Part shown: positions 1-14,589 of the stretch, one piece after another
Numbering within the stretch: the first letter of the stretch is position 1
How the letters are laid out: each line of letters begins with the position of its first letter
DNA from: Rhodobacter viridis
GTDB taxonomy: Bacteria > Pseudomonadota > Alphaproteobacteria > Rhodobacterales > Rhodobacteraceae
Assembly: GCF_003217355.1 (NCBI RefSeq)
Contig: NZ_QJTK01000001.1
Coordinates: 372,001 to 436,000, forward strand
DNA: 64,000 nucleotides
Reading direction: 5' to 3'
The notes under the pieces: model-generated
What the model was told of the DNA's origin: nothing
The model's input: the letters and a program-made list of their open reading frames with translations, nothing else
Databases searched by the model: none
Program-made: the position numbers and the translations under genes

Positions 1-449
1 ATCGAAGGGCTTCTTCGTCACCTTGCAGCGCAGCCACAGGGCCAGGATGCGGGCGCTGCCTTCGTGGTCCTTGAGATAAATGCGGGGCCAATCGAGCGCG
101 GCTTCGTGTCGGGCGACCTGTTCGGGCGAGGGCATGACGCGCAGGCGCCGGGGATCGGGGTCTTCGTCACCGGCCACCTCGGGCAGGCCCCAGCCCTCGG
201 CCAGATGCTCGTCAAGGCTGGCGATGAAGGGCAGCGCCACCGTCTTGATGCCGCCCGGCCCGGTCCTGCCTGCCGACCATTGCGCCCATCGCAGGGCCGC
301 GGTCATCGCCTCGCCCACCGCCTTGGGCGTCCATGTCTCGACAGGGGCATAGCGCGCCGCCAGCGCCGCATTCTGCCGCGCGCAGAACCGTTCGGAATAC
401 TCGGCCAGCATTGCAGCGATGGCGGGGTTGCGCGCGGTCGCGTTCATCG
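1..449 (-). CDS. Truncated mobile-element protein, possibly DUF6362-like
   Basis: An open minus-strand frame starts with ATG at 449 and runs off the left edge without a stop, giving about 149 residues. A strong AGGAGG lies nine bases upstream of the start. The N-terminus begins MNATARNPAIAAML. The later part carries a W-P-R-I-Y-L-K-D-H segment followed by a basic WLRCKVTKKPFD stretch. That segment loosely recalls the DNA-binding DUF6362 proteins often found in Rhodobacterales phages, but this is recognition from memory and is weak. It is the last visible gene of the element and is separated from the BrnTA cluster by a hairpin, so it may form its own transcript. Function unknown. Confidence 0.6.
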
Positions 450-502
450 GCGGTTGCCTCCTATGTCGTGTGTTCCGACAAGATAGCACCCGCCCGCTGG
501 CA

Positions 503-532
503 CGAAAAGGCTGCCAGCGCACGCACGCTGGC
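503..532 (-). terminator. Putative terminator after the brnTA cluster
   Basis: On the minus strand a 7-bp stem, GCCAGCG with CGCTGGC around a six-base loop, is followed by AGCCTTTTCG. It sits downstream of the small gene ending at 633 and upstream of the gene starting at 449. The T tract is short, so termination is plausible but not certain. Confidence 0.45.
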
Positions 533-632
533 GCGTGGTGCGCATCTTGGGGCTTCCGCTACCTGACAGCCGTCAGCGCAAGAGGTGCGTCAGCGGACCG
601 GAAATCGGCCTCTCCGTCGATCCGCCCATCTT

Positions 633-839
633 TCAGGCTTTCAGGCCGGACACCTCGCGCAACGCCTTGTTCTTGCGCATCGCCTCGGCCAGCGCCGGGA
701 ACACCTCTCCGAAGGGCCGGGCCTGTGCAAGCTGCGCATCCGTCGCCCCGGGTGCGTCGGGCGCGTCGGGATCTGAGGCGATCAGGCGCTGAACCCGCGC
801 CTCGTCATCCGCCCCGGGGCCGGTCGCCTTGCCGGTCAT
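633..839 (-). CDS. Small BrnA-N-terminus-like protein
   Basis: A 68-residue acidic protein whose ATG overlaps the brnA stop codon as ATGA, so it is probably translationally coupled to brnA. Its middle, DPDAPDAPGATDAQLAQARPF, followed by a GEVFPAL-type stretch, resembles the N-terminal segment of BrnA antitoxins (DPDNPxLTDExFARARP, then EVLPEL). It has no ribbon-helix-helix DNA-binding half. The preceding gene already encodes a complete BrnA. This could therefore be a second, DNA-binding-free antitoxin or a cofactor of the same module. Family assignment is by eye; the function is inference. Confidence 0.6.
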   Translation of the reverse strand: MTGKATGPGADDEARVQRLIASDPDAPDAPGATDAQLAQARPFGEVFPALAEAMRKNKALREVSGLKA

Positions 840-1078
840 GCCTGATCCGCCGCCGCCTTGGCGATGGCGTCCCGGATCGCCGCATTCACGAAGGCTGACT
901 TGTTGCTCACGGCATTCAGGCGGTCCGCAAGATCGGCGTCGATCATGACGTTCACCCGCACCTTGCGTTCCTCGGGCAGCATCGCAGGCCGCCCCCGCTT
1001 CGCCCGTGCAAAGAAACCGGCGCCGAGTTCCGTCACCTCGCCATCGTCCCCGATCAGTCGATCATGTTCCATCATCAT
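836..1078 (-). CDS. brnA: BrnA-type antitoxin
   Basis: About 80 residues, starting at one of three consecutive ATGs (1078, 1075 or 1072). GGAAGG at 1082-1087 gives the best spacing to the second or third. An N-terminal TELGAGFFARAKRGRP segment is followed by RVNVMIDADLADRLNAV, which fits the ribbon-helix-helix region of BrnA antitoxins. BrnA neutralises the BrnT ribonuclease and represses their shared promoter. The start overlaps the end of brnT, giving the toxin-first order usual for this family. It probably stabilises the element or protects it; no broken features are seen. Confidence 0.8.
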   Translation of the reverse strand: MMMEHDRLIGDDGEVTELGAGFFARAKRGRPAMLPEERKVRVNVMIDADLADRLNAVSNKSAFVNAAIRDAIAKAAADQA

Positions 1079-1331
1079 ATGCCTTCCTTTCCCGCGCGTT
1101 CGCCTTGCGCAAACTGATGACCCGCAAGGCCTCGCCCCGCCTGCACCACGCCACGACGCACAGCCGCCCGCCGATGGGAACAAGGCTCACGAAGCGCGCC
1201 TCGCCATAGTCCCCGCGCTTATCCTCAACCGTCAGGGCATCATCCCATTGCGCCGCCGCCACAGACGCGAAATCGAGGCCCCGCTCGCGCATCGTGGTTT
1301 CACGCTTTGTCTCGTCCCATTCCAGCTTCAT
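1062..1331 (-). CDS. brnT: BrnT-type toxin (RNase)
   Basis: An 89-residue protein beginning MKLEWDETKRE and ending RVISLRKANARERKAYDD. Both signatures are typical of BrnT: the N-terminal FEWDxxKxxxNxxKHG-like opening, here with R-E-R-G-L-D-F, and the C-terminal ISxRxAxxxExxxY. BrnT is an RNase E/RelE-like endoribonuclease toxin that inhibits translation. ATG 1331 was chosen because homology begins there. It has no Shine-Dalgarno sequence and a TATATT box lies only six bases upstream, so the message may be leaderless. Antitoxin brnA overlaps downstream. Confidence 0.85.
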   Translation of the reverse strand: MKLEWDETKRETTMRERGLDFASVAAAQWDDALTVEDKRGDYGEARFVSLVPIGGRLCVVAWCRRGEALRVISLRKANARERKAYDDGT

Positions 1332-1392
1332 GGGAATAATATACACACAAAAAATAAGATCGCCATAACGGCGTGGAAAAATTCCAAGGCCG
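1332..1392 (-). promoter_or_regulatory. AT-rich brnTA promoter region
   Basis: This short stretch between the terminator at 1396-1423 and brnT is strikingly AT-rich for the window. On the minus strand a TATATT box (1343-1338) lies six bases before the brnT ATG. A small GGAA-AAA-TTCC palindrome lies at about 1375-1385. BrnA proteins repress their own promoters, so an operator is expected here. No clear -35 box was found. Confidence 0.45.
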
Positions 1393-1395
1393 GAA

Positions 1396-1423
1396 ACGAA
1401 ACGGGGCGGCACGATGCCGCCCC
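1396..1423 (-). terminator. Terminator downstream of the first Nu1-like gene
   Basis: On the minus strand an 8-bp perfect stem (GGGGCGGC with GCCGCCCC, five-base loop) is followed by GTTTCGTTTCC. It separates the terminase-like operon from the brnTA promoter. Confidence 0.6.
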
Positions 1424-1445
1424 TGTGCCATCGGTTCCGCGCAGG

Positions 1446-1892
1446 TCAATCGGCGGCGGCAAGATCCGCCGCGATGGCCTCCTGAACCTTGCGCAGCGCA
1501 TCTTCGATGGCCCGCCTGTCGCGCATGTCGCGGGTGCAGCGGGCGGGAAGGCCGCCGATCTGGTCCGCGATCACGCCGCAGAGGAAATCGGTCGCGGTTT
1601 CGGCCTCGCTGTCTTGGATCAGGTCACGCCGGGCGATGGCAAGGGCAAGTTCGCTTGCCTCTGCCCTGGCATCGCGGGCGCGTGCCATCGCCGCGCTGGC
1701 CGATGCGTTCCGGCTCGTCTCGCGCAGATGGGCCAAATAGGATTGAACCGCCGAAATCATCGGCACCCGGTCGCCGTCCGGCCGGTCGATCTGCCCGGCG
1801 CCGATCAGCGCCTCGATCTCACCCGGCTCGGCGCCGGTCAAACGGCGCAAGCCGGAAATGGTGATCGTTGCAGTCGGGCGGGCAGTCGTCAT
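1446..1892 (-). CDS. Nu1-like putative terminase small subunit, copy A
   Basis: 148 residues. The ATG overlaps the upstream stop codon as ATGA, and GAGGTG lies six bases before it. The N-terminal 50 residues form a winged-helix-like DNA-binding region (TISGLRRLTGAEPGEIEALI). It is followed by a SYLAHLRE segment, a long Ala/Arg-rich helix with ARRDLI, and a C-terminal region with IADQIGGLPARCTRDM. This architecture matches the Nu1 family of phage lambda small terminases, which bind the packaging site and recruit the large subunit. No large terminase is visible here. A second related gene lies at 2376-2882, so the pair may redirect a helper phage's packaging. The family call is moderate; the role is inference. 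Confidence 0.55.
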   Translation of the reverse strand: MTTARPTATITISGLRRLTGAEPGEIEALIGAGQIDRPDGDRVPMISAVQSYLAHLRETSRNASASAAMARARDARAEASELALAIARRDLIQDSEAETATDFLCGVIADQIGGLPARCTRDMRDRRAIEDALRKVQEAIAADLAAAD

Positions 1893-2383
1893 GCTTTCAC
1901 CTCTTTCGGACCGAGGCCTTTGACGGCCCGGGTGTTGCGCTTGGCAAGCGCAGCGGCCAGAGCCTCGAATGCACCGGCCTGCCGGGCAATCCGGCGAGCA
2001 TCCGCTGGGCCATCCGCGGCTTGGGCCGCAGCGACGGCGGCAAGGCGGCTCAGGCGCCGGTCTATCAATTCCACCATCGGGGCGGCGGCTTTGACGGCTT
2101 GAGTGCGAAGACGGCGCAGACGAAGGGGCGTGCCGCGAAGACCCGGCGGCGGCCCGCGGCGGGCCGGGCGCAGGGCCGCTTCGAGCGCCTTGGGGTCGAT
2201 CTTCGCCGTGTAGAAATTGACGGCGGCGGCAACGGCATCGCCGTAGGTGATCCTGCCATCAGCATCAGAGGCTTCGCGGATGATCGACGGAGCGAGGCGC
2301 AATTCGCGCGCCGCCGTTTCATAGGGAAGCGACTGCGCCCAGAGCCGGGCGACGATGCGAGGAGGGGGGGCTTCGTCATTCAT
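1889..2383 (-). CDS. Hypothetical protein between two Nu1-like genes
   Basis: 164 residues if started at ATG 2383, which overlaps the stop of the upstream gene. An in-frame upstream extension to 2470 lies wholly inside that gene and is unlikely. The N-terminus, RIVARLWAQSLPYETAARELRL, looks like a helix-turn-helix. The C-terminus is a basic Ala/Arg-rich helical region ending KGLGPKEVKA. I do not recognise a family. It overlaps both neighbours, so it is co-translated with the two terminase-like proteins and may be a third DNA-binding packaging factor; that is inference from position only. Confidence 0.65.
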   Translation of the reverse strand: MNDEAPPPRIVARLWAQSLPYETAARELRLAPSIIREASDADGRITYGDAVAAAVNFYTAKIDPKALEAALRPARRGPPPGLRGTPLRLRRLRTQAVKAAAPMVELIDRRLSRLAAVAAAQAADGPADARRIARQAGAFEALAAALAKRNTRAVKGLGPKEVKA

Positions 2384-2882
2384 CCCGACCCCCGCTAATT
2401 TCCGAGAAGTCGCCCGTGTTGAGCGCGGCCAGCGCTCGGTCACGCGCCCGCTCAATGGCCTTGATCGCACCGGAGATCTCGCTTGTCATCGTCTTCCGGG
2501 TCGATGCGGAGAGGGCGCGGTCGATAGGGGTCTTTCGCAGCCGGGCGATGGCGGTGGAGGCGATGCGGGTGACGACATGTTCAGCCTCGGTCAAGTCAAC
2601 AAGCTCGGCCCGGCGCCGGGCGGTGCTGGCCTCGATCAAAGATGCTTTCGCGTTGTGCGATCTGCTGGCCGCGGTGCTGGCGGGGCTCTTTCTGGCCTCG
2701 TCGCGAAGGAAGCGCACATATCCCGAAACCGCCGCCGTCGCGGTCGTTGTGCCGCGCCCGACCCGGGTGACATATCCAGCCTTGACCAACTGGCGCAGGC
2801 GTTCTTCGCCAAGCCCGAGCAGCTTCGCAGCGGCGGCCATCGGCAGGGCGTCCGGGGGCAAATCGGGGGCCGGGGTCGTCAT
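2376..2882 (-). CDS. Nu1-like putative terminase small subunit, copy B
   Basis: 168 residues. A clear N-terminal helix-turn-helix (MAAAAKLLGLGEERLRQLVK) is followed by GYVTRVGRGT, a SGYVRFLRDE motif, and LIEASTARRRAELVDLTEAE, the hallmark middle of Nu1-type small terminases (a long helix with ARxxLV). The remainder is a helical region with IARLRKTP. The architecture is shared with the gene at 1446-1892, but the sequences have diverged strongly. The start lies two bases after the stop of the scaffold-like gene. Small terminases select the DNA to be packaged, and satellites use their own to capture helper capsids. The role here is inferred. Confidence 0.65.
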   Translation of the reverse strand: MTTPAPDLPPDALPMAAAAKLLGLGEERLRQLVKAGYVTRVGRGTTTATAAVSGYVRFLRDEARKSPASTAASRSHNAKASLIEASTARRRAELVDLTEAEHVVTRIASTAIARLRKTPIDRALSASTRKTMTSEISGAIKAIERARDRALAALNTGDFSEISGGRDE

Positions 2883-2884
2883 TG

Positions 2885-3679
2885 TCAGCCCTTTGCCAGA
2901 TCCGCCAGCGCCCCACCGGCCAGCCCACCGGCGCCGCGCAGGGCCGTGGCCTCGTCCTCGGTCATCGAGGGGTTCAACGGCACAGGGCGAGCCTCGGGGG
3001 CCGCCGGGACCGCGCCGATGGATGCGTTGGCGTCGTTCACTGCCTTCGACCAGATCGCGTCCACGCGCTGCGAGCGGGTCATGTGATCAGCCCCGCCAGC
3101 CAAGGGGCCGAACGATCCGGCGGCCGCGCTGCGTTCAGCGAGGGTTGGATATTTCCGCGCTTCGGACTTGGGTGCGGACGTCAGCGCGGCAAGTGCCTGC
3201 CCGAGGTCGAGCGCGGTTTCGACCGCCAGAGCCGCAGCGACAGGGAACCGGCCCTCGGCCTCGGCGTGGCCAAGGATCGAAGCGATGCGCCGCCGTTCGG
3301 TCACCGCCGCCTGGGTGCCGAATGTGCCGATGGCGGTGGGGACCACGAGCGCCTCGGGCGAGGCGGCGGCATCGGTCGGCAGGGTCATCAGCACGGCCGC
3401 CGCGCCTTCCGCACTGATAGGCGTAGAGAGCGCCAAGCGCGCAGCCTGACGCGGACGCCCGTTGCTGGAACCCGCCCTGATCACGGTGGCAATCCGGGCA
3501 CGCTCGGCGGCAGTCTCGGCTTCCACCGCCGCCGCGGCCTTGGCCTTTTCGGCGGCATCTGCTGCTGCCCGCAAGGTTGTTTCAATCTCGCCAGCGAGCA
3601 CCCGCCGTTCGGTCGGGCTGAGGTCGGTCCGCGTGTTGGCGCGGCGGGTGGCTTCGGCTTTGAAGTCGGTCATGGTCAT
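2885..3679 (-). CDS. Scaffold-like protein with duplicated phage-protease C-terminal repeat
   Basis: 264 residues. After an Ala/Lys/Glu-rich helical N-terminus, two copies of one motif occur: ERARIATVIRAGSSNGRPRQ at residues 59-78 and ERRRIASILGHAEAEGRFPV at 128-147. Each is followed by an AxxLAL(S/E)T and AAxxLM/AL stretch. This unit is the usual tail of phage ClpP/S49 head-maturation proteases, which in lambda-like phages is also made alone as the internal capsid scaffold. No protease domain is present. A free-standing scaffold could alter capsid assembly or size, but I cannot test that. The gene lies directly before the Nu1-like genes and its ATGA overlaps a small upstream gene. Confidence 0.55.
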   Translation of the reverse strand: MTMTDFKAEATRRANTRTDLSPTERRVLAGEIETTLRAAADAAEKAKAAAAVEAETAAERARIATVIRAGSSNGRPRQAARLALSTPISAEGAAAVLMTLPTDAAASPEALVVPTAIGTFGTQAAVTERRRIASILGHAEAEGRFPVAAALAVETALDLGQALAALTSAPKSEARKYPTLAERSAAAGSFGPLAGGADHMTRSQRVDAIWSKAVNDANASIGAVPAAPEARPVPLNPSMTEDEATALRGAGGLAGGALADLAKG

Positions 3680-3849
3680 TTCGTTGTCTCGCTATAGGGT
3701 TCGGCGGGCCGGATCTGCGCGGCGGCGCGGCTCAGCAGATCCGCTAGGCCGGGGCGTGGTTGAGATTGCCGATCTTGCAGCGCCGCACGAAGCGCGCGGG
3801 GGTCGAGACATTCCCCAATGGCTTTGTTTTGTTGGGATTTTTCGCTCAT
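3676..3849 (-). CDS. 57-residue hypothetical protein
   Basis: A short gene starting at ATG 3849 with GAGG five to six bases upstream, and ending TGA inside the ATGA start of the next gene. The product begins MSEKSQQNKAIGECLDPRAL and continues with an LQDRQSQPRPGLADLLSRA helix. The good ribosome-binding site and coupled end make it credible as the first gene of the scaffold/terminase-like operon. No family is recognised. Confidence 0.6.
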   Translation of the reverse strand: MSEKSQQNKAIGECLDPRALRAALQDRQSQPRPGLADLLSRAAAQIRPAEPYSETTK

Positions 3850-4218
3850 TTTGTCCTCGTTTTAGGGGGTTGAAATCCAACCAAAATGCAAATTTCAGAT
3901 GTTGGAAATCGCAGAAGACCCGGGCCACCGAAGCGCCGCTCTGGACGGGGGGCTCCAAACGGTCCCTTTGGGGGGGTGCCCCCGCAGCGCCCCGCAGCCG
4001 CCCGTGGGCAGCCTTCTTGCCCTTCCCGCTAGGTGGGTTGCCTTCGCGCGAGTTGCGCGCCCACGGCCCGCCTGCGCGGCATGGTGGGGGTGATGCCCCC
4101 CGCGCAGGGGCGCAGGGGGCCGCGCCGTCGCCGCTTGCCGAAGGCGGCGAGACGACTTCAGAGTGCGAGAGGTAAGGGGAAAGGAAACCGAAAGCCCCAT
4201 ACTCCCGCACCCCGCAAC
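3850..4218. other. Non-coding GC-rich stretch before the packaging-like operon
   Basis: About 370 bases lack a convincing gene. The right part is very GC-rich with dense short inverted repeats and G/C runs. The left 60 bases, next to the gene at 3849, are AT-rich and may be its promoter. Its place just upstream of Nu1-like genes is where cos or pac sites lie in lambda-like phages. I could not identify a cos core, so this is only a candidate location. Confidence 0.35.
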
Positions 4219-4779
4219 CTATTGAACCGGAAGGGCTTGATCGGCGGCCAGCGCGACAACCGGCGACAGGTCGGCACGGCGGCCGATCTGGACGCCCAAG
4301 CGTTCCAGCGCGCGCAGTGCGGCTTCCTCGGCCATCTCGGTGCGCAGGATCTCGCCATCCAGTTCAGCGAGACGGGCCAGCCGGTCTTCGTCGGAAAGGC
4401 CGGGTCTGCTCTGCTCCAAGTCCGAAAGTTGATTGGCGATCAGGTCGCGAACGGCGGCGCGGTTCGTTGCGACGACAAGGCCGAGAAGGTTCGCGACCGC
4501 GATTTCCGCGTGCCCGCTTTGCGAAAGCTTAAGACCGAAAGTCCCGCGCCGGTCCCGAAGGTGGTGAAGTGACAGGCCGTCGATGGCCTCGGTCGCAAGG
4601 TGGTCAAGATGATCGTCGAGGTCGTCCAGCACGTCGGCCAGAGGGCGGGGGGCGGCTTCGATCTGGGTACGATCAGCGCGCAGGGCGCCAATCTGGTCGC
4701 GGAACGTATCGATGGACGACAGCAAGTCGTTGACGCTGGCCGGGGTGTTCGCCGCTTTTTTCATCGTGGGCATCCTCAT
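4219..4779 (-). CDS. Hypothetical coiled-coil-like mobile-element protein
   Basis: 186 residues. The ATG overlaps the previous stop (ATGA), with GGAGGT six bases upstream. The N-terminal half contains an IDTFRDQIGALRADRTQIEA heptad-like helix, then LADVLDDLDDHLDHLATEAI. A central LSLHHLRDRRGTFGL segment and a helical C-terminus ending ALPVQ complete it. The pattern suggests a long helical, possibly oligomeric protein. No enzyme motif or membrane segment is seen. It pairs with the equally helical protein from 4776-5279, suggesting the two act together. Function unknown. Confidence 0.7.
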   Translation of the reverse strand: MRMPTMKKAANTPASVNDLLSSIDTFRDQIGALRADRTQIEAAPRPLADVLDDLDDHLDHLATEAIDGLSLHHLRDRRGTFGLKLSQSGHAEIAVANLLGLVVATNRAAVRDLIANQLSDLEQSRPGLSDEDRLARLAELDGEILRTEMAEEAALRALERLGVQIGRRADLSPVVALAADQALPVQ

Positions 4780-5279
4780 TTCGACACCTCCCCGGCAAGC
4801 AGCAGCGGAATGGTCGCGCCATGGTCGAGGGCGAATTTGAGCGCAGCCCGAAGGACCGACTGCGCGGCGCCCGCGGCTTCGCTGGCCTCGGCGGCTTCAT
4901 CGCTCGCCGTCTGCATGGCGGCCCGCAGTTGCGCGACCTCGGCCTCGATCACCGCGGCTTGCGCTTCTGCTTCGGCTTCGAAGCCGGGCGCGGCACGCTG
5001 CGCGAGAAGACGGATGCGCGTCTCGCGCTCCGAAATCATCTCCCGAAGTTGGTGCCCCCGGTCGGTCGCCATCCGGGCGCGCGCCCGGTGCCGGTCGCGG
5101 GTCGAGGCCAGGGCGGAAAGGCGGCTGGCAGGTGCCAAGGTGATGCCCTCGACGGTCATCGCCGTGGTGGGCTGGGCCGGTTTCGGCACGGGCGGGGGCG
5201 GAAGAGGCACTGTCCGGCGGGGTGCCTTGCCGTGGACGAAAGCGCCGAGGTCGGCATATCTTTCACGAAAATCTGTCAT
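4776..5279 (-). CDS. Hypothetical coiled-coil protein
   Basis: 167 residues starting at ATG 5279. The N-terminus MTDFRERYADLGAFVHG is followed by a proline-rich linker (VPLPPPPVPKPAQP). Then comes a long Ala/Glu/Arg-rich region (residues about 55-145) that would form coiled coil. The C-terminus is FALDHGATIPLLLAGEVSK. Start and stop are tightly coupled to the following gene. A strong hairpin (5350-5379) lies upstream, so these two genes may be read by attenuated read-through or from their own promoter. No family recognised. Confidence 0.65.
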   Translation of the reverse strand: MTDFRERYADLGAFVHGKAPRRTVPLPPPPVPKPAQPTTAMTVEGITLAPASRLSALASTRDRHRARARMATDRGHQLREMISERETRIRLLAQRAAPGFEAEAEAQAAVIEAEVAQLRAAMQTASDEAAEASEAAGAAQSVLRAALKFALDHGATIPLLLAGEVSK

Positions 5280-5349
5280 CGGGGGGGCCTTTCGGTTTGT
5301 CGTTGCCCCCAGATTGCCACCCTCTCCGCCGACCGAGCACCCACCCCCT

Positions 5350-5379
5350 CAGTTAAGACGCCCGCCGGATCGGCGGGCG
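5350..5379 (-). terminator. Putative terminator/attenuator in the element
   Basis: A perfect 9-bp stem (CGCCCGCCG with CGGCGGGCG, three-base loop) occurs at 5359-5379, and on the minus strand it is followed by TCTTAACT. It divides the replication-side genes from the coiled-coil gene pair. Confidence 0.5.
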
Positions 5380-5404
5380 CTTCGGGTCATGCGAGAGACG
5401 ATGA

Positions 5405-6067
5405 TCAGAAGGAAAAGCTGGCCTGCGGCTCTTGCCCTTTACGGTCCTGCCGGATGCGCTCGGCCAGGGTATCCGCGCCGGGCATCGGGTGATGAAGGCC
5501 GAGTTTCATAACTAGCCACCACGTCTCGGCCTCCCCGCCGGGGCGCGTCTTCCGATCCTTTCTGTCCTCGGGCCAGCGCGTGCTTTCGTATCGCGCGCAA
5601 GCCGCCCGCAGCGCCTTGGCGGCGGCGCTGGCAGTCATTTCGCGATAGGGCGCCTCGCGCGACAACGAAAGCACCAGGGCGTTCCGCTCGGCGATTTTTG
5701 CCTCGAAGGCCAGCGGCCTGCGGCCATCCCGAGGCCGCAAGCCGAGGTGGAAATCGAGGAAATCGTGCTGCCCCAGATCCTCCGTGAGCCATTCGCTGAT
5801 CAAGGCGGCGACCTCGCGCACCTCGCGATCAGCGCTCAGGCCCCCCCACTCGACCAGCCGAGCCAGCGCCGATCCGACGGCGACCGGACCGGCGGCAAGC
5901 AAGGCCTCCGGGTCGTCAAGGTGCCAGTCTGCCGAGGTCTGCCACGCGGGCAAAGCCGGGCGCTGGATCCACGCCTCGGTCATCGTCGGAGGCACGTCTT
6001 CGTGGTCGATTTCGAGACCGCGCCGGGCGGGGCCGGTTTGACCGGCCCCCGCATCATCGTCATGCAT
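5405..6067 (-). CDS. Hypothetical mobile-element protein
   Basis: 220 residues from ATG 6067, with AAGGAGG about six bases upstream. The start overlaps the upstream stop closely (ATGCATGA). The protein is acidic near the N-terminus (MHDDDAGAG). A middle domain contains SALARLVEWGGLSADREVRE and ISEWLTEDLGQHDFLDFHLG, and a basic region RWPEDRKDRKTRP precedes WWLVMKLGLHHP. It probably folds as a soluble helical protein. I recognise no family. It lies in the block next to the iteron cluster, so a role in replication or its control is possible but unsupported. Confidence 0.7.
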   Translation of the reverse strand: MHDDDAGAGQTGPARRGLEIDHEDVPPTMTEAWIQRPALPAWQTSADWHLDDPEALLAAGPVAVGSALARLVEWGGLSADREVREVAALISEWLTEDLGQHDFLDFHLGLRPRDGRRPLAFEAKIAERNALVLSLSREAPYREMTASAAAKALRAACARYESTRWPEDRKDRKTRPGGEAETWWLVMKLGLHHPMPGADTLAERIRQDRKGQEPQASFSF

Positions 6068-6581
6068 CGTCGCCTCCTTGCACCCAACACACCCCGGCAC
6101 CTTTGAGGCCGGAGGTCGCCAGCCGGTCGCCGATCCGCCAGAACAGAAGAAACGACGCGGCACCGTCCGATTTCCGGGTGATCGGTTCCACCCGCTCCAA
6201 CCGCGCCAGCCGCTTCCCGATCCGTAGCTCTGTCCCGATCTCCGGGGGCGCGTCGAAGCAGATCGGATATTTTCCCTTCCGCGCATCCGATGCGCGGGCG
6301 CGATTGCGCGCCCGCACCTGCTCGAAGTGTTCGGCGAGGATTGCCTGCACGGTTTCGTCAGAAAGGCCGCGTTCCATGAAGGCCGTGCCGACGATCTCGA
6401 CGTGATCGCGCCAGAATTTCGCCCGATCCGGTTTCTTCATCCCCGCCATGATCGTTTCAACGAGATCGTGGTCGAGTTGCGGCAATGCGGGGTGCGGGGA
6501 AACCGATGCGGGTTTGTCCCGCATCGGGCCGGGTTTCCGACCGATGGATTTGCGGGCCAGCACGCGCAATTCAGCGGTCAT
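6060..6581 (-). CDS. Hypothetical protein next to the putative origin
   Basis: 173 residues from ATG 6581. GGAGG lies seven bases upstream and decides against the longer in-frame start at 6620. The N-terminus is basic (LARKSIGRKPG). A central helical part contains RAKFWRDHVEIVGTAFMERG and LSDETVQAILAEHFEQV. The C-terminal part, IGTELRIGKRLARLERVEPI then FLLFWRIGDRLATSGLKG, looks like a small beta barrel or RNA/DNA-binding fold. It is the first gene downstream of the iteron region. No family recognised. Confidence 0.7.
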   Translation of the reverse strand: MTAELRVLARKSIGRKPGPMRDKPASVSPHPALPQLDHDLVETIMAGMKKPDRAKFWRDHVEIVGTAFMERGLSDETVQAILAEHFEQVRARNRARASDARKGKYPICFDAPPEIGTELRIGKRLARLERVEPITRKSDGAASFLLFWRIGDRLATSGLKGAGVCWVQGGDDA

Positions 6582-6609
6582 GACAAACCTCCATTTCGGG
6601 CTTGGCAAC

Positions 6610-6790
6610 TGGCAAGGCACGCACCCCCATTAAATGGGGGTGCTGCGTGACTTGCCCTGGATTGCGGGGTGGCAAGGGACGGTGGCAAGTGACGCAAAAA
6701 CACGTCCCTTGCCGTCCCTTGCGTCGGTTGCCGAGGTGGCAAGTGACGGTGGCAAGTGACCCCCCCTTTTCCGACAAAGCGTGACTTGCC
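6610..6790. repeat. Iteron cluster, candidate replication origin
   Basis: At least nine copies of a GGCAAG(T/G)GAC-type unit occur in 180 bases. Direct copies start at 6611, 6671, 6684, 6738 and 6751; inverted copies start at 6647, 6704, 6714 and 6781. Two direct pairs have an exact 13-base period (6671/6684 and 6738/6751). This arrangement beside a RepA-like helicase gene is characteristic of iteron-controlled origins of plasmids and phage satellites. The 5-gene side of the cluster contains a long palindrome with an AT-rich centre. Confidence 0.7.
6618..6649. repeat. Long palindrome at the edge of the iteron cluster
   Basis: A 10-bp perfect stem, GCACCCCCAT with ATGGGGGTGC around TAA, lies at 6621-6643. 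With one bulge it extends by CAC/GTG outward. It abuts the iterons and could be an initiation hairpin, a repressor site, or a terminator for the repA transcript. Confidence 0.65.
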
Positions 6791-6802
6791 AGTTTCGCCC
6801 GT

Positions 6803-7906
6803 TCACACATCCGCATTTCCGCCCCCTTCGATGATCTGAAACAGGCCGCCTGCCTCCTTCGAGACGCGGCCGAGTTCGGCGAGCAGGAGGAGCATCTGGC
6901 GCGCACGCTCGCGCCCCGACCGCGCGTCCTTGCAATTTATGGCGCCAGCATCGGCCAAAATTTTCCCAGCATCTGAAGCAGAGAAAGGGCCGGACGGCAG
7001 CAGGGATAGGGCCGCGATTGCGCGGCCCTCGGCCTCGGCCCGTTTCGCGTCGTTCGCTGCCAGCGCGCCCTTGGCCTTCGGCGCCGGGGTGATCTGTTCG
7101 CAGACGGCAGAAGTGACAGGATCGCCATCTTCGTCTCTCCCAATCTCAACGGCGCGCAAGCTGAAGTGGATCGGCGCCCCAAAGGCAAGATCTCGCTGTT
7201 TTGTGGTCGTCGCCTTCACCTCACCGCCGCTGGCGGTCAGTTCGATTTCGCTGTCAAGGGCGGCGTGCAGGCTTGAATGCCCCCTCAACCCTCGCGAGGT
7301 ATCTTTGCCAGTGTGATGCACAAGCATGACGTGGGCGCCGGTCGCGGCCTGAATTTTGCCGCAGGATGCGACAAGCGCCGCGATGTCCTTGCCCTCGTTC
7401 TCGTTCCCCGACCCGAGGGACCGGGCCAGAGTGTCAATCACGACGAGCGACGGCCGCACGTCCAGCGCGTCTTCGATCATGCGAACGATCAGATCGGCAT
7501 CTGTTCCCCCGCACATGTCAACAGGTAGGGGAAGGATCGCCATTCCGGCCTTCGTCGCCTTCGCCACCACCTCTGGCTTCGCGGTTCGGAGCGCGGCAAC
7601 TCGGTTGCCGAACACCGCCGCGCCTTCGGCACAGACGTAGACCGCAGGCCCGGCGGCGGCCACACGGTGGCCGAACCATTCCGCACCGGCCGAGACATGC
7701 ACCGCCAGATCTAGGGCGAAGAACGATTTGCCCACGTTCGAGGGGCCGAAAAGGCACGAAAAGGCGCCACGGTCGAGCCAGTTCTTGACCAAATACCGAC
7801 CCGCGGTGACCGGGCGCACGCGTTCAAGCGGCGCCAAGGCGTTGATAAGGAGGGCAAGGCGGGCCTCCCCGCCGCTGCCCGTCATCGGGCGAGGCGCGGC
7901 GTTCAT
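6803..7906 (-). CDS. RepA-like hexameric replicative helicase (AAA ATPase)
   Basis: 367 residues from ATG 7906, which overlaps the upstream stop as ATGA. A RecA-fold ATPase: Walker A GPSNVGKS at residues 54-61, Walker B SLVVIDTLARS near 150, and a sensor-like HVMLVHHTGKD later. This order matches the RepA/AAA_25 helicases of RSF1010-type plasmids and many satellites, which unwind DNA at the origin. The C-terminal 100 residues contain a likely winged helix (SASDAGKILADAG, then a DARSGRERARQML-type helix). The iteron cluster lies immediately downstream, and the winged-helix protein upstream may be the initiator. The whole layout supports autonomous replication after excision. Confidence 0.85.
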   Translation of the reverse strand: MNAAPRPMTGSGGEARLALLINALAPLERVRPVTAGRYLVKNWLDRGAFSCLFGPSNVGKSFFALDLAVHVSAGAEWFGHRVAAAGPAVYVCAEGAAVFGNRVAALRTAKPEVVAKATKAGMAILPLPVDMCGGTDADLIVRMIEDALDVRPSLVVIDTLARSLGSGNENEGKDIAALVASCGKIQAATGAHVMLVHHTGKDTSRGLRGHSSLHAALDSEIELTASGGEVKATTTKQRDLAFGAPIHFSLRAVEIGRDEDGDPVTSAVCEQITPAPKAKGALAANDAKRAEAEGRAIAALSLLPSGPFSASDAGKILADAGAINCKDARSGRERARQMLLLLAELGRVSKEAGGLFQIIEGGGNADV

Positions 7907-8343
7907 TTGACACCGCCTTCCTGGACTTCCCGGGCGGGCATGGTCGCGAGGTAGATGTTCGCGGGTCGTCCCCGCCCTTCGTGTTTTGCGTGCCCGACCA
8001 CGCAAAGCAGACCTGCTTCCCGGAGGCGCTTGATCGCGCCCCGGGCGCCTTGCGGATGGACCCCGCAGGCCGCCGCCCATTCCCCCGAACCCGCCTTTGC
8101 GGTCATCGTGTCGTGGTCAAGGCGACCCGCCAGCCAAACGGCGAGATACAGATCCACGGGCCGAAGGCCGCTCTGCGTCAAGCGGCTGGCACCGTGGACT
8201 GCGGCCACGGTTTGCAGCCATGCCAAGGGGCTTGCGGCTTGTGCGGGAACGGGTTTCGCCGTATCCTCGCGCTTGATCTTCGTTTGAATGGCCTCGGGGC
8301 GCTGGCGGGCGCCTTCGGGGCCTTTTCGTTTTAGTGAAGGCAT
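7903..8343 (-). CDS. Winged-helix protein, possible replication initiator
   Basis: 146 residues from ATG 8343, with GGAAGGGGG upstream. A basic N-terminus (MPSLKRKGPEGARQR) precedes a winged-helix domain: LAVWLAGRLDHDTMTAKAGS, then EWAAACGVHPQGARGAIKRL, then a wing LCVVGHAKHEGRGRPANIYL. Small winged-helix proteins coupled to a RepA helicase include RepC-type initiators that bind iterons, but regulators share this fold. The ATGA overlap with the helicase gene indicates joint translation. Initiator is the most attractive reading and is inference. Confidence 0.7.
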   Translation of the reverse strand: MPSLKRKGPEGARQRPEAIQTKIKREDTAKPVPAQAASPLAWLQTVAAVHGASRLTQSGLRPVDLYLAVWLAGRLDHDTMTAKAGSGEWAAACGVHPQGARGAIKRLREAGLLCVVGHAKHEGRGRPANIYLATMPAREVQEGGVK

Positions 8344-8505
8344 GATGCCCCCTTCCGTGATACCCGGCAAAGTGCCGGGCGACTGGTGACGCCCTATGTC
8401 TCCAATCAATCAATCACGGGCCGGGTGGGCTTTCGGCTTGAAGATATAATAGCCCGATCCGACTGCCGCGCAAGGTTGGAGATTGTGGGGTGCTGCTATA
8501 GGGGA

Positions 8506-8694
8506 TCAAGCGGCGTTCGATGCGGCGGCCTTGGCCGTTTCCCAGGCCTCAAGATCTGAAAGCCGCCAGCGGACGCAGCCGGGGGAAAGGGTGACAGGCG
8601 CCGGGAAGGTCGCGTCCGCCTTGCGCCAGCGCCAGACGGTCACGCGTGAAACGCCGTAGCGTTCAGCGGTTTGCCGGTCAGAAAGGAACGTCAT
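8506..8694 (-). CDS. alpA: AlpA/Vis-type regulator
   Basis: 62 residues: MTFLSDRQTAERYGVSRVTV, WRWRKADATFPAPV, CVRWRLSDLEAWE. This is the AlpA (MerR-like excisionase/activator) fold with the helix-turn-helix at about residues 6-25 and the typical FPxPVxL...RWRxSDLExW end. In P4 and Gram-negative PICIs, AlpA/Vis controls integrase and late genes and acts as an excision factor. GAGGTG six bases before the ATG lies inside an inverted repeat, suggesting that repressor binding blocks this promoter and start. It lies between the integrase pair and the replication genes, as in satellites. Confidence 0.85.
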   Translation of the reverse strand: MTFLSDRQTAERYGVSRVTVWRWRKADATFPAPVTLSPGCVRWRLSDLEAWETAKAAASNAA

Positions 8695-8695
8695 G

Positions 8696-8735
8696 TTGCA
8701 CCTCGTTTGATGTGGTGCAAACCAATTTCACCACA
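8696..8735. promoter_or_regulatory. Two overlapping operator-like inverted repeats
   Basis: TTGCACC (8696-8702) pairs with GGTGCAA (8714-8720), and TGTGGTG (8711-8717) pairs with CACCACA (8729-8735). Both are perfect 7-bp arms with an 11-base spacer, and they share the GGTG at 8714-8717. They occupy the alpA promoter/ribosome-binding region. A regulator, possibly AlpA itself or a helper-phage protein, probably binds here. Confidence 0.65.
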
Positions 8736-8794
8736 TTTCGAAGGTTCGCAAAACCTTTCGACAACTCCCCCAAGGCACCGGGAAGTTACGAAAA

Positions 8795-9469
8795 TCACAG
8801 GCGGCGCAGATCGGCAAAAAGTGCGTTCCGACCGGGGATCGGGCCGCCGATTGCGAAGTCATGAGCCGTGTCAAGAAAGGCCGCGAACGCCTTGTCTCTG
8901 TTTGCATTTCCGCCGAGTGGGATGCCTGCGCGGCGAAACAGCGGAACGAGCGCAGCGCCGAAAACGGCGACGGGCCGGGGGCGCGTGTTGGCGGTGTAAC
9001 CACCCCGGCCGCCTGCCTTGCCTGGCGCGGCCAGAAGTGCCTCGGCGGCAGTTTCGGCGGCGGCCAGTTCTTCGCGGTCGAACAGGTCGATCAGCGAAAA
9101 CGCCATCGCCCCTGCGGGGCCGTCCAGCGGCCCGCCCGCGGCGGCCCTTCGCAGCGCGCGGGCGTCATCTACTAGCGTCGCCAGTTCCTCGCGCAGCGCC
9201 AACACCCGCTCGGCCAGCGCCTCCACCTCGGGGCGGGACCATTCCCGAACAAACGGGTTCACCTCTGCTTCATCGCGCAATCGTAGAAGCAGGGCCTCAA
9301 TCTGGCCGCGCGCCTCGGGGTCATCGCGCAACCGCGCGAGCCGGTCATCTGCGGCAACGACGCGCAGCCAGAAGGGAGCAACGGCCTCGGCCCGCTCGCG
9401 CTCTGCGCGTTTTCCGGCCTCGATCAGCGCTGCGATCAGGGCGGGATCTTGGGGGGGCAGGCCGGTCAT
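8795..9469 (-). CDS. Hypothetical helical protein coupled to the integrase
   Basis: 224 residues from ATG 9469, overlapping the integrase stop as ATGA. The first 150 residues are charged helix (RAERERAEAVAPFWLRVVAA, then LIEALLLRLRD-like segments). A hinge follows (PGKAGGRGGYTANTRPRP) and then a C-terminal domain, VAVFGAALVPLFRRAGIPLG through RDKAFAAFLDTAHDFAIGGP. No family recognised. Position directly behind int suggests a function in integration, excision or immunity, but there is no direct evidence. It shares the transcript with int and is followed by the alpA operator region. Confidence 0.7.
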   Translation of the reverse strand: MTGLPPQDPALIAALIEAGKRAERERAEAVAPFWLRVVAADDRLARLRDDPEARGQIEALLLRLRDEAEVNPFVREWSRPEVEALAERVLALREELATLVDDARALRRAAAGGPLDGPAGAMAFSLIDLFDREELAAAETAAEALLAAPGKAGGRGGYTANTRPRPVAVFGAALVPLFRRAGIPLGGNANRDKAFAAFLDTAHDFAIGGPIPGRNALFADLRRL

Positions 9470-10812
9470 GTGCGCACCGACAGAGGGGCAGGGAATGGCA
9501 CGACTGTTTGCGCCGCCCGCCCATGGAGAAAGTCGGCCCATTGCACCATTACCTGCCGCCGCCGTTCGAGAAGGTCGGTTCGCCGATAGGCCCGCTCGGT
9601 CTGATCGCCGACATCGTGGGCAAGCGCCAGTTCGGCGAGAGTGTGGTCGATGCCGTGATCTGCCGCCCAATCGCGGAAGCTACTCCGCAGCCCGTGCGGG
9701 ACCGCCGGGCGCCCAGTGCGTGGATCGCGCCAGCCCGCCTTATCCACCGGCAGCCCAGCCTTTTGCGCGGTGCGCTCGGCGTCTGCTTGCATGTCCCGCA
9801 TCACTTTCGAAAGCGTCATGTCGGACAAGGGGCCGCCGCGCGGCGCCCAGAAAACAAGTTCACTATCGGCCCGGGGCAGGTCTCGGAGCAGGGCTAGCGC
9901 ATCGGGCGACAACGCCACACGATGTTCGCGCTTCATCTTCATGCGCTCGGGCGGAACGATCCATAGCCCGGCCCCAAGGTCTATTTCATCCCATCGCGCG
10001 CCCCGCACTTCACCCGAGCGGCTGGCGCATAGGCACGCGAAGCGCAGGGCCGCAGCCCCCATGCCGCCGCGCCTCCCGAGGGCGGCCCACCATGCCGCAA
10101 GATCGGCCTGCGCGATGGCAGGTTGATTGGCGCCCTTGGCCACCGCGTCGGGGCGGGGCAGCAGTTCGGCCAAGTTGCCATTCCAACGGGCCGGGTTCGG
10201 GGCGTCGTGCGGGCGATGGCCCGCGACGGCAGCCCAGTTCAGGATTGCCTCAAAGCGCATCCGCAGCTTTCGCGCGGTCTCTGTCTTGTCGAGCCAGATC
10301 GGTTGCAGCACCCGGAGAATGTCGCGCGTCTCTATTTCCGAGACGGCGATCCTGCCGATTTCGGCTGCGGCATACGTCTGAAAAGTGCTGCGCAAGTATT
10401 TGATGGCCTTTTCGTTTCCGATTTGCGCTCCCTTGGCCTCGATCCACATTTCGAGCGCATCGGCCATGGTCAATGTGCGCCGCTGCGCCGCCGCCAGAGC
10501 GGCGCGGGTGGCCTTGCGTTCCTCGATTGGGTCGATGCCGTCGCGGACCTTGGCTTTCGCCTGCCGCGCCCGGTCTCGCGCTTCGGCCAACGAAACCTCG
10601 GGATATGCGCCCAACCCAACGGCCCGCCGTTTGCCGCCGATCAGCGTGCGCAACAACCAAGATTTCCCGTCGCTCGGGCTGACCTGCAACAATAGGCCTG
10701 CTACGCCGCCCACTGCATGCCATTCGGATCGGTCCCGCGTTCCTGAGTGGCTGACGCGCTTTACGTCGAGCGGCCCCCACTCTCGCACCCTCTTGGGCAT
10801 CCCGTTCTCCAA
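9466..10812 (-). CDS. int: P4-type tyrosine integrase
   Basis: 448 residues. The N-terminal DUF4102 arm-binding domain is seen in HAVGGVAGLLLQVSPSDGKS, then a GLGAYPEVSLAEARDRARQA hallmark. A core-binding SAM-like domain follows (MADALEMWIEAKG). The catalytic domain has the first Arg in CASRSGEVRGARW, HGLRSSFRDWAADHG (HxxR), and the nucleophile Tyr in DQTERAYRRTDLLERR. Length and motifs match P4/CP4-57 integrases, which insert islands mostly at tRNA 3' ends. No tRNA is visible to the right, so the att site is either unusual or on the far side. The gene is intact. Confidence 0.95.
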   Translation of the reverse strand: MENGMPKRVREWGPLDVKRVSHSGTRDRSEWHAVGGVAGLLLQVSPSDGKSWLLRTLIGGKRRAVGLGAYPEVSLAEARDRARQAKAKVRDGIDPIEERKATRAALAAAQRRTLTMADALEMWIEAKGAQIGNEKAIKYLRSTFQTYAAAEIGRIAVSEIETRDILRVLQPIWLDKTETARKLRMRFEAILNWAAVAGHRPHDAPNPARWNGNLAELLPRPDAVAKGANQPAIAQADLAAWWAALGRRGGMGAAALRFACLCASRSGEVRGARWDEIDLGAGLWIVPPERMKMKREHRVALSPDALALLRDLPRADSELVFWAPRGGPLSDMTLSKVMRDMQADAERTAQKAGLPVDKAGWRDPRTGRPAVPHGLRSSFRDWAADHGIDHTLAELALAHDVGDQTERAYRRTDLLERRRQVMVQWADFLHGRAAQTVVPFPAPLSVRT

Positions 10813-11040
10813 TCATTCAACCTATGCGGGCGGAGTGAAAATCGGGAGTAGAACTTTTTCGCCGATTTATGTCTCTCCATCCTGCTAGCCAAAAATATTG
10901 CAACAAGATGCAAGGCGATGCAATCGGCTGTTTCTTGGAATTTGCCTAAGTTCTTGATAAGGAAAGAAAGATATTACAGATTGAAACGACGTGAAAAGCG
11001 CCTGCGGCGTTTGTCGGGTGCGCCATTTCTCCAAGACGTT
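10813..11040. other. Non-coding right boundary of the element
   Basis: About 230 bases between the integrase start and the terminator of the first host gene. They are more AT-rich than the surroundings (for example TTCTTGATAAGGAAAG near 10950). They should contain the integrase promoter and the right attachment site. No tRNA or tmRNA 3' end, and no direct repeat to a second site within the window, was found. Confidence 0.5.
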
Positions 11041-11078
11041 GAAATGAAAAGACGCCCGAGGGGCGCCTTTGCTTTCCC
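11041..11078 (-). terminator. Terminator of the glycosyltransferase gene
   Basis: On the minus strand GGCGCCCCTCGGGCGTC forms a GC stem, followed by TTTTCATTTC, 20 bases after the stop at 11096. It marks host sequence and so limits the element's right end to below about 11.04 kb. Confidence 0.7.
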
Positions 11079-11095
11079 GAATGTGCCGGAAGCGC

Positions 11096-11800
11096 TCAAG
11101 CCGCTGATTGCGGCACGGGCGAGCTGTTCCATTTCTGCAGATATTTCAGCCGGTTCAGATGCCAGCTTTCGGTTCCGAACTGGCCCCGGCTCTCGTGCAT
11201 CAGGGCGATATCCCAGACCCCAAGCGTCAGACCCGCCTGACGGGCGGCAAGGCAGAAATCGACGTCATAGAAGTGGAAATCGAACCGCTCGTCGAAACGA
11301 AGGTTTCTCTCGATCAGCGCGCTCATCCGGCAGGCCACGAAGACACCATCAATCAGATCGACCGGGATGCGCGAGGGGCCCAGCCGGTTCACGCGCTTCG
11401 GCGGCCAGCTTGTTCCATGCGCGATGGAGCCCGCCATCTTCTCCTTGTCGACGCGCGTGCCATGCTCGTCCTCAAAGCACCAGGCGACTTGACCGGGAAC
11501 GGGGCGCACAGATCCCGCGACGCCGATGATGTCGAAAGCCTGCATCCCGTCGTGGCAATGCCCAAGCCAGTGATGATCGACGAAGAACACGTCATCGTGG
11601 CAGAAGATCAGGGTGTCATATTCGTCCTTCGATCGCTCGATGGCGTCGTTGTAGACACGCGAGAGCCCGGCGGTGTTGGACGGATAAAGCAGGATGTCGC
11701 ACTGATCGGACAGGCTGCGTTCGAAAGTCTGACCAGTCGGTTTCGTGGCGTAAAATTCGTCAAGCCCAACGGGCGTGGCCACGACAAGTCTGCTTCTCAT
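11096..11800 (-). CDS. StrF-type glycosyltransferase family protein
   Basis: 234 residues from ATG 11800, preferred over 11821 because GAGGT lies at good spacing. It begins MRSRLVVATPVG. A nucleotide-sugar-binding-like LIFCHDDVFF (DxD-type) motif sits near residue 70. VPVDLIDGVFVACRMSALIE-like and FHFYDVDFCLAARQAG motifs are typical of the Glyco_tranf_2_5 (StrF) family. Such proteins transfer sugars onto surface polysaccharides or secondary metabolites; the substrate cannot be predicted. No membrane segment is present, so it is probably cytoplasmic. It is a single-gene unit adjacent to the island insertion. Confidence 0.75.
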   Translation of the reverse strand: MRSRLVVATPVGLDEFYATKPTGQTFERSLSDQCDILLYPSNTAGLSRVYNDAIERSKDEYDTLIFCHDDVFFVDHHWLGHCHDGMQAFDIIGVAGSVRPVPGQVAWCFEDEHGTRVDKEKMAGSIAHGTSWPPKRVNRLGPSRIPVDLIDGVFVACRMSALIERNLRFDERFDFHFYDVDFCLAARQAGLTLGVWDIALMHESRGQFGTESWHLNRLKYLQKWNSSPVPQSAA

Positions 11801-12052
11801 TCCAAACCTCGATCCGGTCATTCTGATCCGGCGTCGAGATTAGGCGAGGAAGGCTGACAAAGCGTTAACTGTCGACGGTCTCTGGCAAAGCGCCCCGCGA
11901 TCGAGATCATCTTGTCTCGCAAATCGGGGTCGGCGACGCATCTTTTACGCAGAGTTTTCCAGATGTCGCACTGTCGTGCAACCTGTTGGAAAATATTGGA
12001 AAAGCACCGGTTCCGGGCGTGGTTTCCCGAAAGTTTTCCTCAGGGGGAAGGA

Positions 12053-12613: not shown

Positions 12614-12918
12614 TTTGGTTCGCCTGTCCCTCGGTCTATGCCGTCTGAAGTATTGCGGCTTGATCCGAACGTATCCGGATTCCGTGGCGAAGTTATGGCA
12701 CGAAGAGAATCGTGTTTCAAATTGTCATTTTTTACGGGGTAGGGAAAACCCCACCATTCGGCGATTTCTTGCCGTTAACGAGTCCTAACAGATTCTGTGG
12801 CGCGTTTGCATCTGTCGCGCGGCTGACGCGGCAAAAGGCCGTGTCAACCGCCTGCGGGGATGGACTTGCGCAAGGTTTTCCCACAGGTTGCGAGCTACTC
12901 TTCTGTAGTGGGAACAGA
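12614..12918. other. Divergent promoter region between DUF882 and L,D-transpeptidase genes
   Basis: About 300 non-coding bases containing AT-rich stretches (around 12705-12735) suited to promoters. No recognised binding motif was found. Confidence 0.5.
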
Positions 12919-14541: not shown

Positions 14542-14589
14542 ATCGGGGACGAGGCGCGGGACGGCGCCGCTCAACGAGGGGCTTGATCC

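Follow-up and report, generated by a model that had tools for sequence, protein, structure and literature searches.

The left end of a 64-kb stretch of the Rhodobacter viridis chromosome (the window; C1:372001-436000 of a 3.87-Mb draft genome) holds most of a 13,701-bp island that we take, with a probability of about 0.78, to be an integrated phage satellite and one member of an undescribed alphaproteobacterial satellite family, known from sequence alone. The sequence contains an insertion in a tRNA-Arg gene bounded by attachment (att) repeats, an integrase, an AlpA-type regulator, a RepA-like helicase with iterons, two small terminase subunits (TerS), a relative of a phage scaffold, and a noncoding site shared with helper-type phages. 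In our best reading, members of the family would redirect packaging and capsid size in a helper phage that uses a GpA-type terminase, and some might also redirect tail assembly. Most of what is known about phage satellites comes from Enterobacteria, Vibrio, and Gram-positive cocci. A search of the open literature, subscription papers excluded, found no publication on satellites of Rhodobacter or Rhodobacteraceae.

The original prediction of a satellite, made from the first 11,040 nucleotides of the window, recognized that the left end was missing. The element indeed runs 2.7 kb further left, to tRNA-Arg(CCG) (C1:369248-369324, ARAGORN). A second att site and a length of 10-18 kb had been expected; the site lies in this tRNA gene, and the 14-bp repeats delimit 13.7 kb, including the left end recovered outside the window. 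This repeat is the sole match of at least 14 bp between window positions 10701-11500 and the preceding 42.7 kb. The right boundary falls at 11,025, not at 11,040 as originally drawn. In another genome of the genus (G782; handles beginning with G denote genomes, those with L loci), the flanks are 84-88% identical to those of the island. The match ends at the end of the tRNA and restarts at window position 12025, with approximately 125 bp in between; G782 therefore represents the empty site. A third genome of the genus, G784, carries a sister island in the same tRNA with its own 15-bp repeat. Eleven genes are common to the two islands (int, g224, alpA, hth, g167, g186, scaffold, nu1a, mid, nu1c, and g188), and all 11 are under purifying selection, with Ka/Ks values of 0.13-0.40 by a simple Nei-Gojobori count in which the gene starts of the sister are uncurated and Ks of nu1a is near saturation. 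The sister differs in the rep region, the toxin-antitoxin pair, and the left cargo, which consists of SRAP- and SocA-like genes (by reading; one match each in the Pfam tally). The empty site and the sister at the same tRNA in the same genus support the earlier interpretation as a satellite; the island is assigned here to a separate lineage. Immediately right of attR, a segment of approximately 0.97 kb (11032-11997) with a glycosyltransferase-like gene (by reading) is missing in both G782 and G784 and is probably a separate small insertion event.

Twenty-one genes were called in the island, with starts set by eye. From the right, the minus strand carries the integrase, g224, AlpA, a helix-turn-helix (HTH) protein, the RepA-like helicase, the iterons, g173, g220, g167, and g186. 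After a 370-bp gap, it continues with g57, the scaffold-like protein, nu1a, mid, nu1c, BrnT, a ribbon-helix-helix (RHH)-like protein, g68, g188, and a ParB-like fragment. Two plus-strand genes, an XRE-ImmA/IrrE regulator and a 232-aa protein, lie beside the tRNA, so the proposed one-strand layout holds for the island genes within the window and fails for these two to its left. The P4-type integrase, AlpA, RepA-like helicase, iterons, scaffold-like protein, and two Nu1-like TerS proteins named in the original prediction were all recovered by Pfam, PHROG, and shuffled controls. All seven copies of GGCAAGTGACG (at most one mismatch) in the 64-kb window fall within 145 bp, a number reached in 0 of 100 shuffles. 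Likewise as predicted, no portal, major capsid, large terminase (TerL), or tail family, and no lysis family, was matched at E ≤ 0.001 by Pfam or PHROG in 20 of the 21 genes, the 57-aa gene being left out. The nearest structural match is a weak one (E 0.2) of the scaffold gene to phrog_8940, a "capsid assembly protein" listed in the tail category. The four genes left of the window start matched no structural, lysis, or conjugation gene in Pfam or PHROG, in agreement with a satellite rather than a phage or conjugative element.

Related elements were counted at 15 loci: the island itself, G784, G051, G353, G182, G283, G142, G708, G750, G878, G931, G836, L050, L247, and L252. Partial or weak loci in G381 (L141), G400 (L229), G998 (L276), and G1030 (L278) were kept outside the counts, as was a contig-end fragment in G339 (L032) with g220, g167, and nu1a but no g186 match. 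Member genomes are spread over three families of the class (f1, f135, and f171). Among 394 family genomes, 18 contain a match to nu1a, the window's own genome being one of them; of these 18 loci, G051 and G353 are satellites, L037 and L142 are full phage blocks, and the rest are partly classified. Alignments of g186 gave matches in 7 of 394 family and 4 of 385 class genomes, and an enlarged alignment matched 8 of 390 order genomes, one weakly; the three samples overlap, and each contains the window's own genome. In IMG/VR, L050 was found via g186, and L247 and L252 via a DNA motif. Exact att repeats were found at 8 of the 12 chromosomal loci searched. Seven lie at tRNA ends (own, G784, G051, G353, G142, G931, and G836; tRNAs for Arg, Gly, Glu, and Met), and G708 has a 44-bp repeat and no tRNA. 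In the ranges searched, no repeat was accepted for G182 (only a GC-rich 14-mer), G283, G878, or G750.

The family is best recognized by a cassette of three genes. By hidden Markov model (HMM), g220, g167, and g186 are all matched and adjacent in 11 of 15 elements, and g186 is present in every one. L247 has g220 and g186 with an unscored open reading frame (ORF) between them, and G708, G750, and L252 have g186 alone of the cassette, by profile. Since g186 was the search bait, its presence in most members follows from the design of the search; the exceptions are G051 and G353, which nu1a retrieved, and L247 and L252, which came from the DNA motif. Searches by tblastn with the g186 sequences of the island and L252 found nothing among 50,697 phage and 72,556 plasmid records. 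Its structural model is confident (mean predicted local distance difference test score, pLDDT, 84.9) and all helical. Because its companions include quite different virion parts, g186 may act generally to redirect assembly or late expression. The integrase is a poor family marker because few of its relatives carry the cassette: among the best 80 of 286 relatives in viral contigs, only L050/L134 (one contig) does, and among the best 80 of at least 545 in genome contigs, only L143 and L149 (G283 and G353 again) do. The g220-g167-g186 cassette is thus a concrete marker for finding more members. Two members lie outside chromosomes. L247 (IMGVR_UViG_3300043399_001082, 1-14041) is probably a circular free satellite because it has a 127-bp terminal repeat and a repA split over its ends. 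L252 (IMGVR_UViG_2799112273_000001, 1-14938) has a 95-bp terminal repeat, a Rep_3 initiator, and no recognized integrase, together with TerS, a cos-like site, neck, S49 protease, tape measure, g186, and a tail-D-like gene (by reading); it is a possible satellite plasmid.

The late genes of the satellites are kin of a subset of a block found in helper-type phages (L037, L142, and Mae-JY30, PP438422). This block comprises DUF6362, neck protein Z, the noncoding site, ParB/methylase, TerS, GpA-type TerL, portal, S49 protease-scaffold, decoration protein D, and major capsid protein (MCP); DUF6362 was seen in L037, gene names in L037 and L142 come partly from reading and tblastn, and the gene checks vary by locus. 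Single-sequence profiles of TerL, portal, and MCP matched none of 19 satellite loci, the scan of G051 stopping 1.3 kb short of the end of its element. The nu1a and nu1c proteins align by hhalign with the helper-type TerS set at 99.6% and 99.3%, one of the eight rows in that set being out of frame. Tandem nu1a and nu1c occur in 6 of 15 elements (own, G784, G051, L050, G878, and G931) and a single TerS in three (G353, L252, and G750). In a 30-row tree, nu1a forms a satellite-only clade (6/6; support 100/99), nu1c a clade in which five of six rows are satellite (85/84, below the tool's star), and the G353 TerS sits among phages (98/96). Because of these placements, most satellites with TerS appear to keep old terminase subunits of their own, and one would have borrowed its subunit more recently. 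A third small terminase was considered for mid and not adopted; hhalign reached 50.6% at best, and the model (pLDDT 67.6) had no fold match.

The scaffold protein of the window matches phrog_17040, "head maturation protease", at 4e-9, and a scaffold family (phrog_8399) only at 0.02. A scaffold without protease is present in 9 of 15 elements (own, G784, G051, G353, L050, G283, G142 weakly, L247, and G931), whereas a whole S49 protease is present in two (G182, phrog_53 2e-110; L252, by profile). A scaffold alignment search of viral contigs returned no matches. PHROG matches to the window protein fall into two stretches, and the scaffold motif is doubled in G051 (score 91; shuffle maximum 73) and L247 (86; 57) and not above shuffles in L050 (58; 60) or G283 (46; 57); the split point was optimized for real sequences only, which favors them. 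Further virion parts vary among members: head decoration D and a tail X/baseplate-hub protein in G051; neck protein Z in G353, L247, and L252; a tail fiber in L050; and a tape measure in four of 15, namely L050 (phrog_28 1e-79), G708 (5e-20), L247 (5e-49; 793 aa), and L252 (3e-10), the latter two matched by the L050 profile. Small tail proteins, taken by reading as tail chaperones, occur in L050 (phrog_166 5e-19) and weakly in G708 (phrog_2115 2.5e-5).

A noncoding site with the core AGGGACCGT lies approximately 110 bp before the g57-scaffold-TerS operon of the island. Over 281 bp, the gap preceding g57 shares 72% identity with its G784 counterpart; identity is 66-67% in the longer blastn segments of this region, one of which spans the gap. 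The core precedes a scaffold or TerS operon in G784, G051, L050, G353, G878, G931, and L252. It occurs in 12 copies in 10 of 15 elements, or in 8 of 13 when L247 and L252, which were fished out by a longer form of the motif, are set aside. Twenty shuffles of all 15 elements, the ends of several of which were set by eye, gave a mean of 0.95 copies (maximum 4) in a mean of 0.90 elements (maximum 3). The longer pattern was found in 28 virus contigs, including near-copies such as L248/L260, L257/L259, and L241/L261. With flanks defined as a neck gene within 5 kb upstream or a terminase or ParB gene within 9 kb downstream on the same strand, a neck gene precedes the site in 18, TerS, ParB, or TerL follows it in 21, and at least one is present in 22; of the six with neither, one is the satellite L247. 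The argument rests on this gene context (22/28) and on the shuffles within the 15 satellites, not on chance expectation across viral contigs. In L239, L245, L255, L258, and L264, the site stands alone between the neck gene, whose match ends 50-89 bp upstream, and TerS, whose match starts 97-259 bp downstream. In lambda-like phages, cos is kept between the neck gene and the TerS region. Because its place beside the terminase genes fits this arrangement, the AGGGACCGT site is likely a cos site or, failing that, a late promoter.

These data allow us to propose how the island may operate. A lambda-like phage with a GpA-type terminase would infect or be induced, AlpA and Int would excise the island, and RepA would copy it from the iterons. 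The TerS proteins of the satellite would then bring the helper TerL to the satellite site, and nu1a or nu1c might block the helper's small terminase. The scaffold, a protease-freed kin of the scaffold segment of the helper protease, would compete for the helper capsid protein, giving small shells that fit about 14 kb, and the particle would be finished with helper tails. In other family members, additional helper components (decoration, neck, tape measure, or fiber) may also be substituted. Both TerS redirection and scaffold competition are inferred from homology and position. More tentatively, exchange of individual virion parts might be how the lineage spreads. An invariant core (integration, replication, g220-g167-g186, and the packaging site) would be combined with interchangeable helper-type parts (the two old satellite-only TerS proteins, a freed and in places doubled scaffold, and decoration, neck, tape-measure, tail-chaperone, and fiber genes). 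In this scheme, g186 would let the satellite parts win, and L252 would be a plasmid-borne form with Rep_3 instead of an integrase. If so, swapping would let each member reset, for one and the same helper class, the packaging, the shell size, the tail length, or the range of hosts.

Several observations weigh against the proposed satellite and its mechanism. No resident helper was found; in a search confined to GpA-type TerL, the only one in the genome sits in another satellite-like element. Six of 15 satellites have no recognizable TerS, and four of 15 have neither scaffold nor S49 gene. Scaffold doubling is just above shuffles in the island itself (75; maximum 72) and likewise in G784 (67; 64). 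Use of g186 as bait partly builds its presence into most members, and fold searches with g186 and mid returned nothing at E 0.001 or better. As to the site, five of 15 satellites lack the exact core, the G142 copy precedes g188 and not TerS, and the L247 copy lies apart from the late genes. Among phages, L036-L038 and Mae-JY30 carry a diverged form only, ParB and other genes put more than 5 kb between site and TerS in L037 and L142, and the ends of VP882 and phiHAP-1, distant cos phages used as a cos control, lack the motif. The element with the GpA-type TerL is itself a second island, of 11.8 kb with 22-bp repeats, at tRNA-Arg(ACG) (G000 C3:96450-108253; L030 10450 to L030+L031 22253). It has an integrase, an AlpA-like protein, a capsid-protease fusion (phrog_4523 6e-140), portal, TerL, TerS, and a RepA-like match, with no tail gene among the seven proteins scanned. 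It resembles a capsid-forming phage-inducible chromosomal island (PICI), so that one genome would hold both kinds of satellite.

The homology of the late genes to a subset of the phage block could also mean that the island is a defective prophage, in which a helper-type lambda-like phage lost terminase, portal, capsid, and tail, leaving scraps of TerS, scaffold, DUF6362, and a piece of ParB. The ParB-like fragment and a truncated BrnA-like gene do look like remnants. We consider this very unlikely, as 15 elements have related, reduced gene sets, seven of these elements sit at the ends of four kinds of tRNA gene, all 11 genes shared with the sister are under purifying selection, nu1a forms a satellite-only clade, and g186 was not found in the 50,697 phage records. 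Decoy TerS and scaffold proteins might instead poison phage assembly and protect the host without efficient spread of the island, with the toxin-antitoxin genes and ImmA as further defense. BrnT, the XRE-ImmA/IrrE regulator, and the variable left-end cargo, for which the sister has SRAP- and SocA-like genes, would suit such an anti-phage island. However, the integrase, AlpA, RepA, iterons, cos-like site, and empty site point to mobility, and interference can coexist with spread; we regard this explanation as highly improbable.

The site at 3850-3990 admits a narrower alternative, that it is a helper-type late promoter through which the helper's late activator switches on the morphogenesis genes, packaging proceeding via another site. 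Its distance from the g57-scaffold-TerS operon is consistent with a promoter, as is its location ahead of ParB in several phages and ahead of g188 in G142; late promoters shared between satellite and helper have a precedent in P4. In the five compact phages, however, the site occupies by itself the place of cos between neck and TerS, and the succession of a GC-rich and a T-rich stretch is, in our judgement, more cos-like than promoter-like. A late promoter is thus rather unlikely, and we favor a cos site within an integrated satellite.

The features of the island are collected in Table 1. Its BrnT gene, RHH-like putative antitoxin, and a small gene resembling a truncated BrnA occupy 633-1343, and at about the BrnT spot the G784 sister has a RelE/ParE-type pair (by reading). 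Cargo elsewhere was assigned by reading: for 99 unassigned ORFs of 14 relatives, the top 25 of 115 PHROG and 35 Pfam families were viewed, not each ORF. In L275 (G931:C6), positions 1124-4281 near the tRNA encode what reads as a DUF4123-type protein together with a 610-aa protein that PHROG does not match; the two look like an effector-type pair. In L140 (G142:C271), 7726-9838 hold an Mrr-type restriction endonuclease-like protein and an HNH protein (by reading), possible defense genes. Of ten large unassigned ORFs, six had matches, mainly to replication initiators or primase, and four had none; one large L050 ORF also has tail-fiber-like repeats.

Table 1. Features of the island, listed from its right end (positions are those of the window unless a contig is given)
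Feature	Position	Strand	Evidence or remark
attR	11012..11025	.	14-bp core TGTCGGGTGCGCCA, identical to tRNA-Arg(CCG) 3' end
Tyrosine integrase, P4 type	9466..10812	-	Arm-DNA-bind_3 6e-19, Phage_integrase 4e-15; phrog_1 2.6e-48
g224, no assigned function	8795..9469	-	Kept in sister satellite, 89% aa, Ka/Ks 0.13
AlpA-type regulator/excisionase	8506..8694	-	PF05930 8.5e-7; phrog_66 1e-10
HTH protein, weakly replication-initiator-like	7903..8343	-	phrog_345 0.013; Ka/Ks 0.24
RepA-like AAA_25 helicase	6803..7906	-	PF13481 3.6e-37
Iteron-like cluster, 7 x GGCAAGTGACG, both orientations	6646..6790	.	At most 1 mismatch
g173, no assigned function	6060..6581	-	Relatives in G931 and G878 satellites
g220, cassette gene 1	5405..6067	-	HMM
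g167, cassette gene 2	4776..5279	-	HMM; Ka/Ks 0.35
g186, cassette gene 3, satellite marker	4219..4779	-	All-helical model
Candidate cos-like packaging site or late promoter	3850..3990	-	C-run, AGGGACCGT (3967-3959), GC-rich, then T-rich stretch
g57 small protein	3676..3849	-	Conserved in G784; weakly in G051, L050
Scaffold-like protein	2885..3679	-	Relative of C-terminal scaffold part of S49 head protease, without protease
nu1a, small terminase, satellite-only clade	2376..2882	-	phrog_57 6e-8
mid protein, between both small terminases	1889..2383	-	Possible degenerate winged-helix relative, unproven
nu1c, second small terminase	1446..1892	-	phrog_57 5e-8
BrnT ribonuclease toxin	1062..1343	-	PF04365 2.6e-21
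RHH-like putative antitoxin	836..1078	-	Weak CcdA/BrnA match, below cut-off
g68	633..839	-	Like N-terminal part of BrnA-like gene in G051 satellite, 72% over 46 aa
g188, DUF6362-like	1..447, runs 119 bp left of window	-	phrog_6836 2e-18; PF19889 below cut-off
ParB-like fragment	Left of window	-	
XRE + ImmA/IrrE regulator	Left of window	+	
232-aa protein	Left of window	+	
attL	C1:369311-369324, 2.7 kb left of window		tRNA-Arg(CCG) 3' end

The original prediction placed the island among PICI- or P4-like elements. P4 encodes a P4-type integrase, an AlpA/Vis-like regulator, Psu, Delta (Ogr), and an alpha primase-helicase. The island shares the integrase type and the AlpA/Vis-like regulator. In contrast, no Psu or Ogr/Delta family was matched in Pfam at E ≤ 1 in 20 of 21 genes (Sid had no model of its own). 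The island RepA matches AAA_25 alone in Pfam, with no primase domain, and its PHROG primase-helicase matches cover helicase parts. Capsid-forming PICIs, in the available portion of PMC10690885, are similar in size, whereas no capsid, portal, or TerL was found in the island. The element is therefore not a capsid-forming PICI, not P4-like by the features tested, and PICI-like in layout. The original prediction was correct both in what it described and in the class it chose, and we take the island to represent a new satellite family.

Comparison with Gram-negative PICIs (EcCICFT073 and PmCI172) was made by layout and by the criteria described in the available part of PMC6092414, not gene by gene. 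These elements are 12-15 kb long and have an integrase, AlpA, a replication gene, their own att, sometimes terS, and no full structural set. At 13,701 bp, the island falls within the size range of approximately 12-15 kb, and int, AlpA, HTH, RepA, and the iterons supply the integrase, replication module, and transcription regulator. Structural and lytic genes should be absent; no such family was matched at E ≤ 0.001, yet the island has a scaffold relative, and virion parts occur in other family members. The island further differs from the PICIs described there in the placement of int, which lies at the end distal to the tRNA, and in its pair of small terminases, protease-derived scaffold, and g220-g167-g186 cassette. 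SaPI1 of Staphylococcus is the closest mechanistic model: its 72-aa CpmB competes with the helper scaffold (PMC5644958, in part), and some members of its PICI group carry their own TerS (PMC6092414, in part). The hosts are unrelated, the island scaffold is a relative of the S49 protease scaffold part, and no CpmA was recognized (compared with PMC5644958, in part).

Tail parts link the family to other satellites. MiniFlayer carries a tail fiber (PMC10690885, in part). The available portion of PMC12987554 describes Vibrio phage-inducible chromosomal island-like elements (PLEs), which have their own tape-measure and chaperone genes and form chimeric tails, and lists putative tmp genes in other satellites, including capsid-forming PICIs. 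Four of 15 family members likewise carry a tape-measure gene, whereas no tape measure or tail chaperone was found in the island itself, and the PLE helper is the lytic phage ICP1 (PMC12987554, in part). Virion assembly piracy that includes replacement of tail parts was first known in PLEs, according to the same portion of that source. For Alphaproteobacteria, our studies add a satellite family defined from genomes, together with a predicted class of helper, a candidate packaging site common to satellite and helper, and named candidate redirecting genes, so that piracy of this kind becomes testable in another, unrelated set of bacteria.

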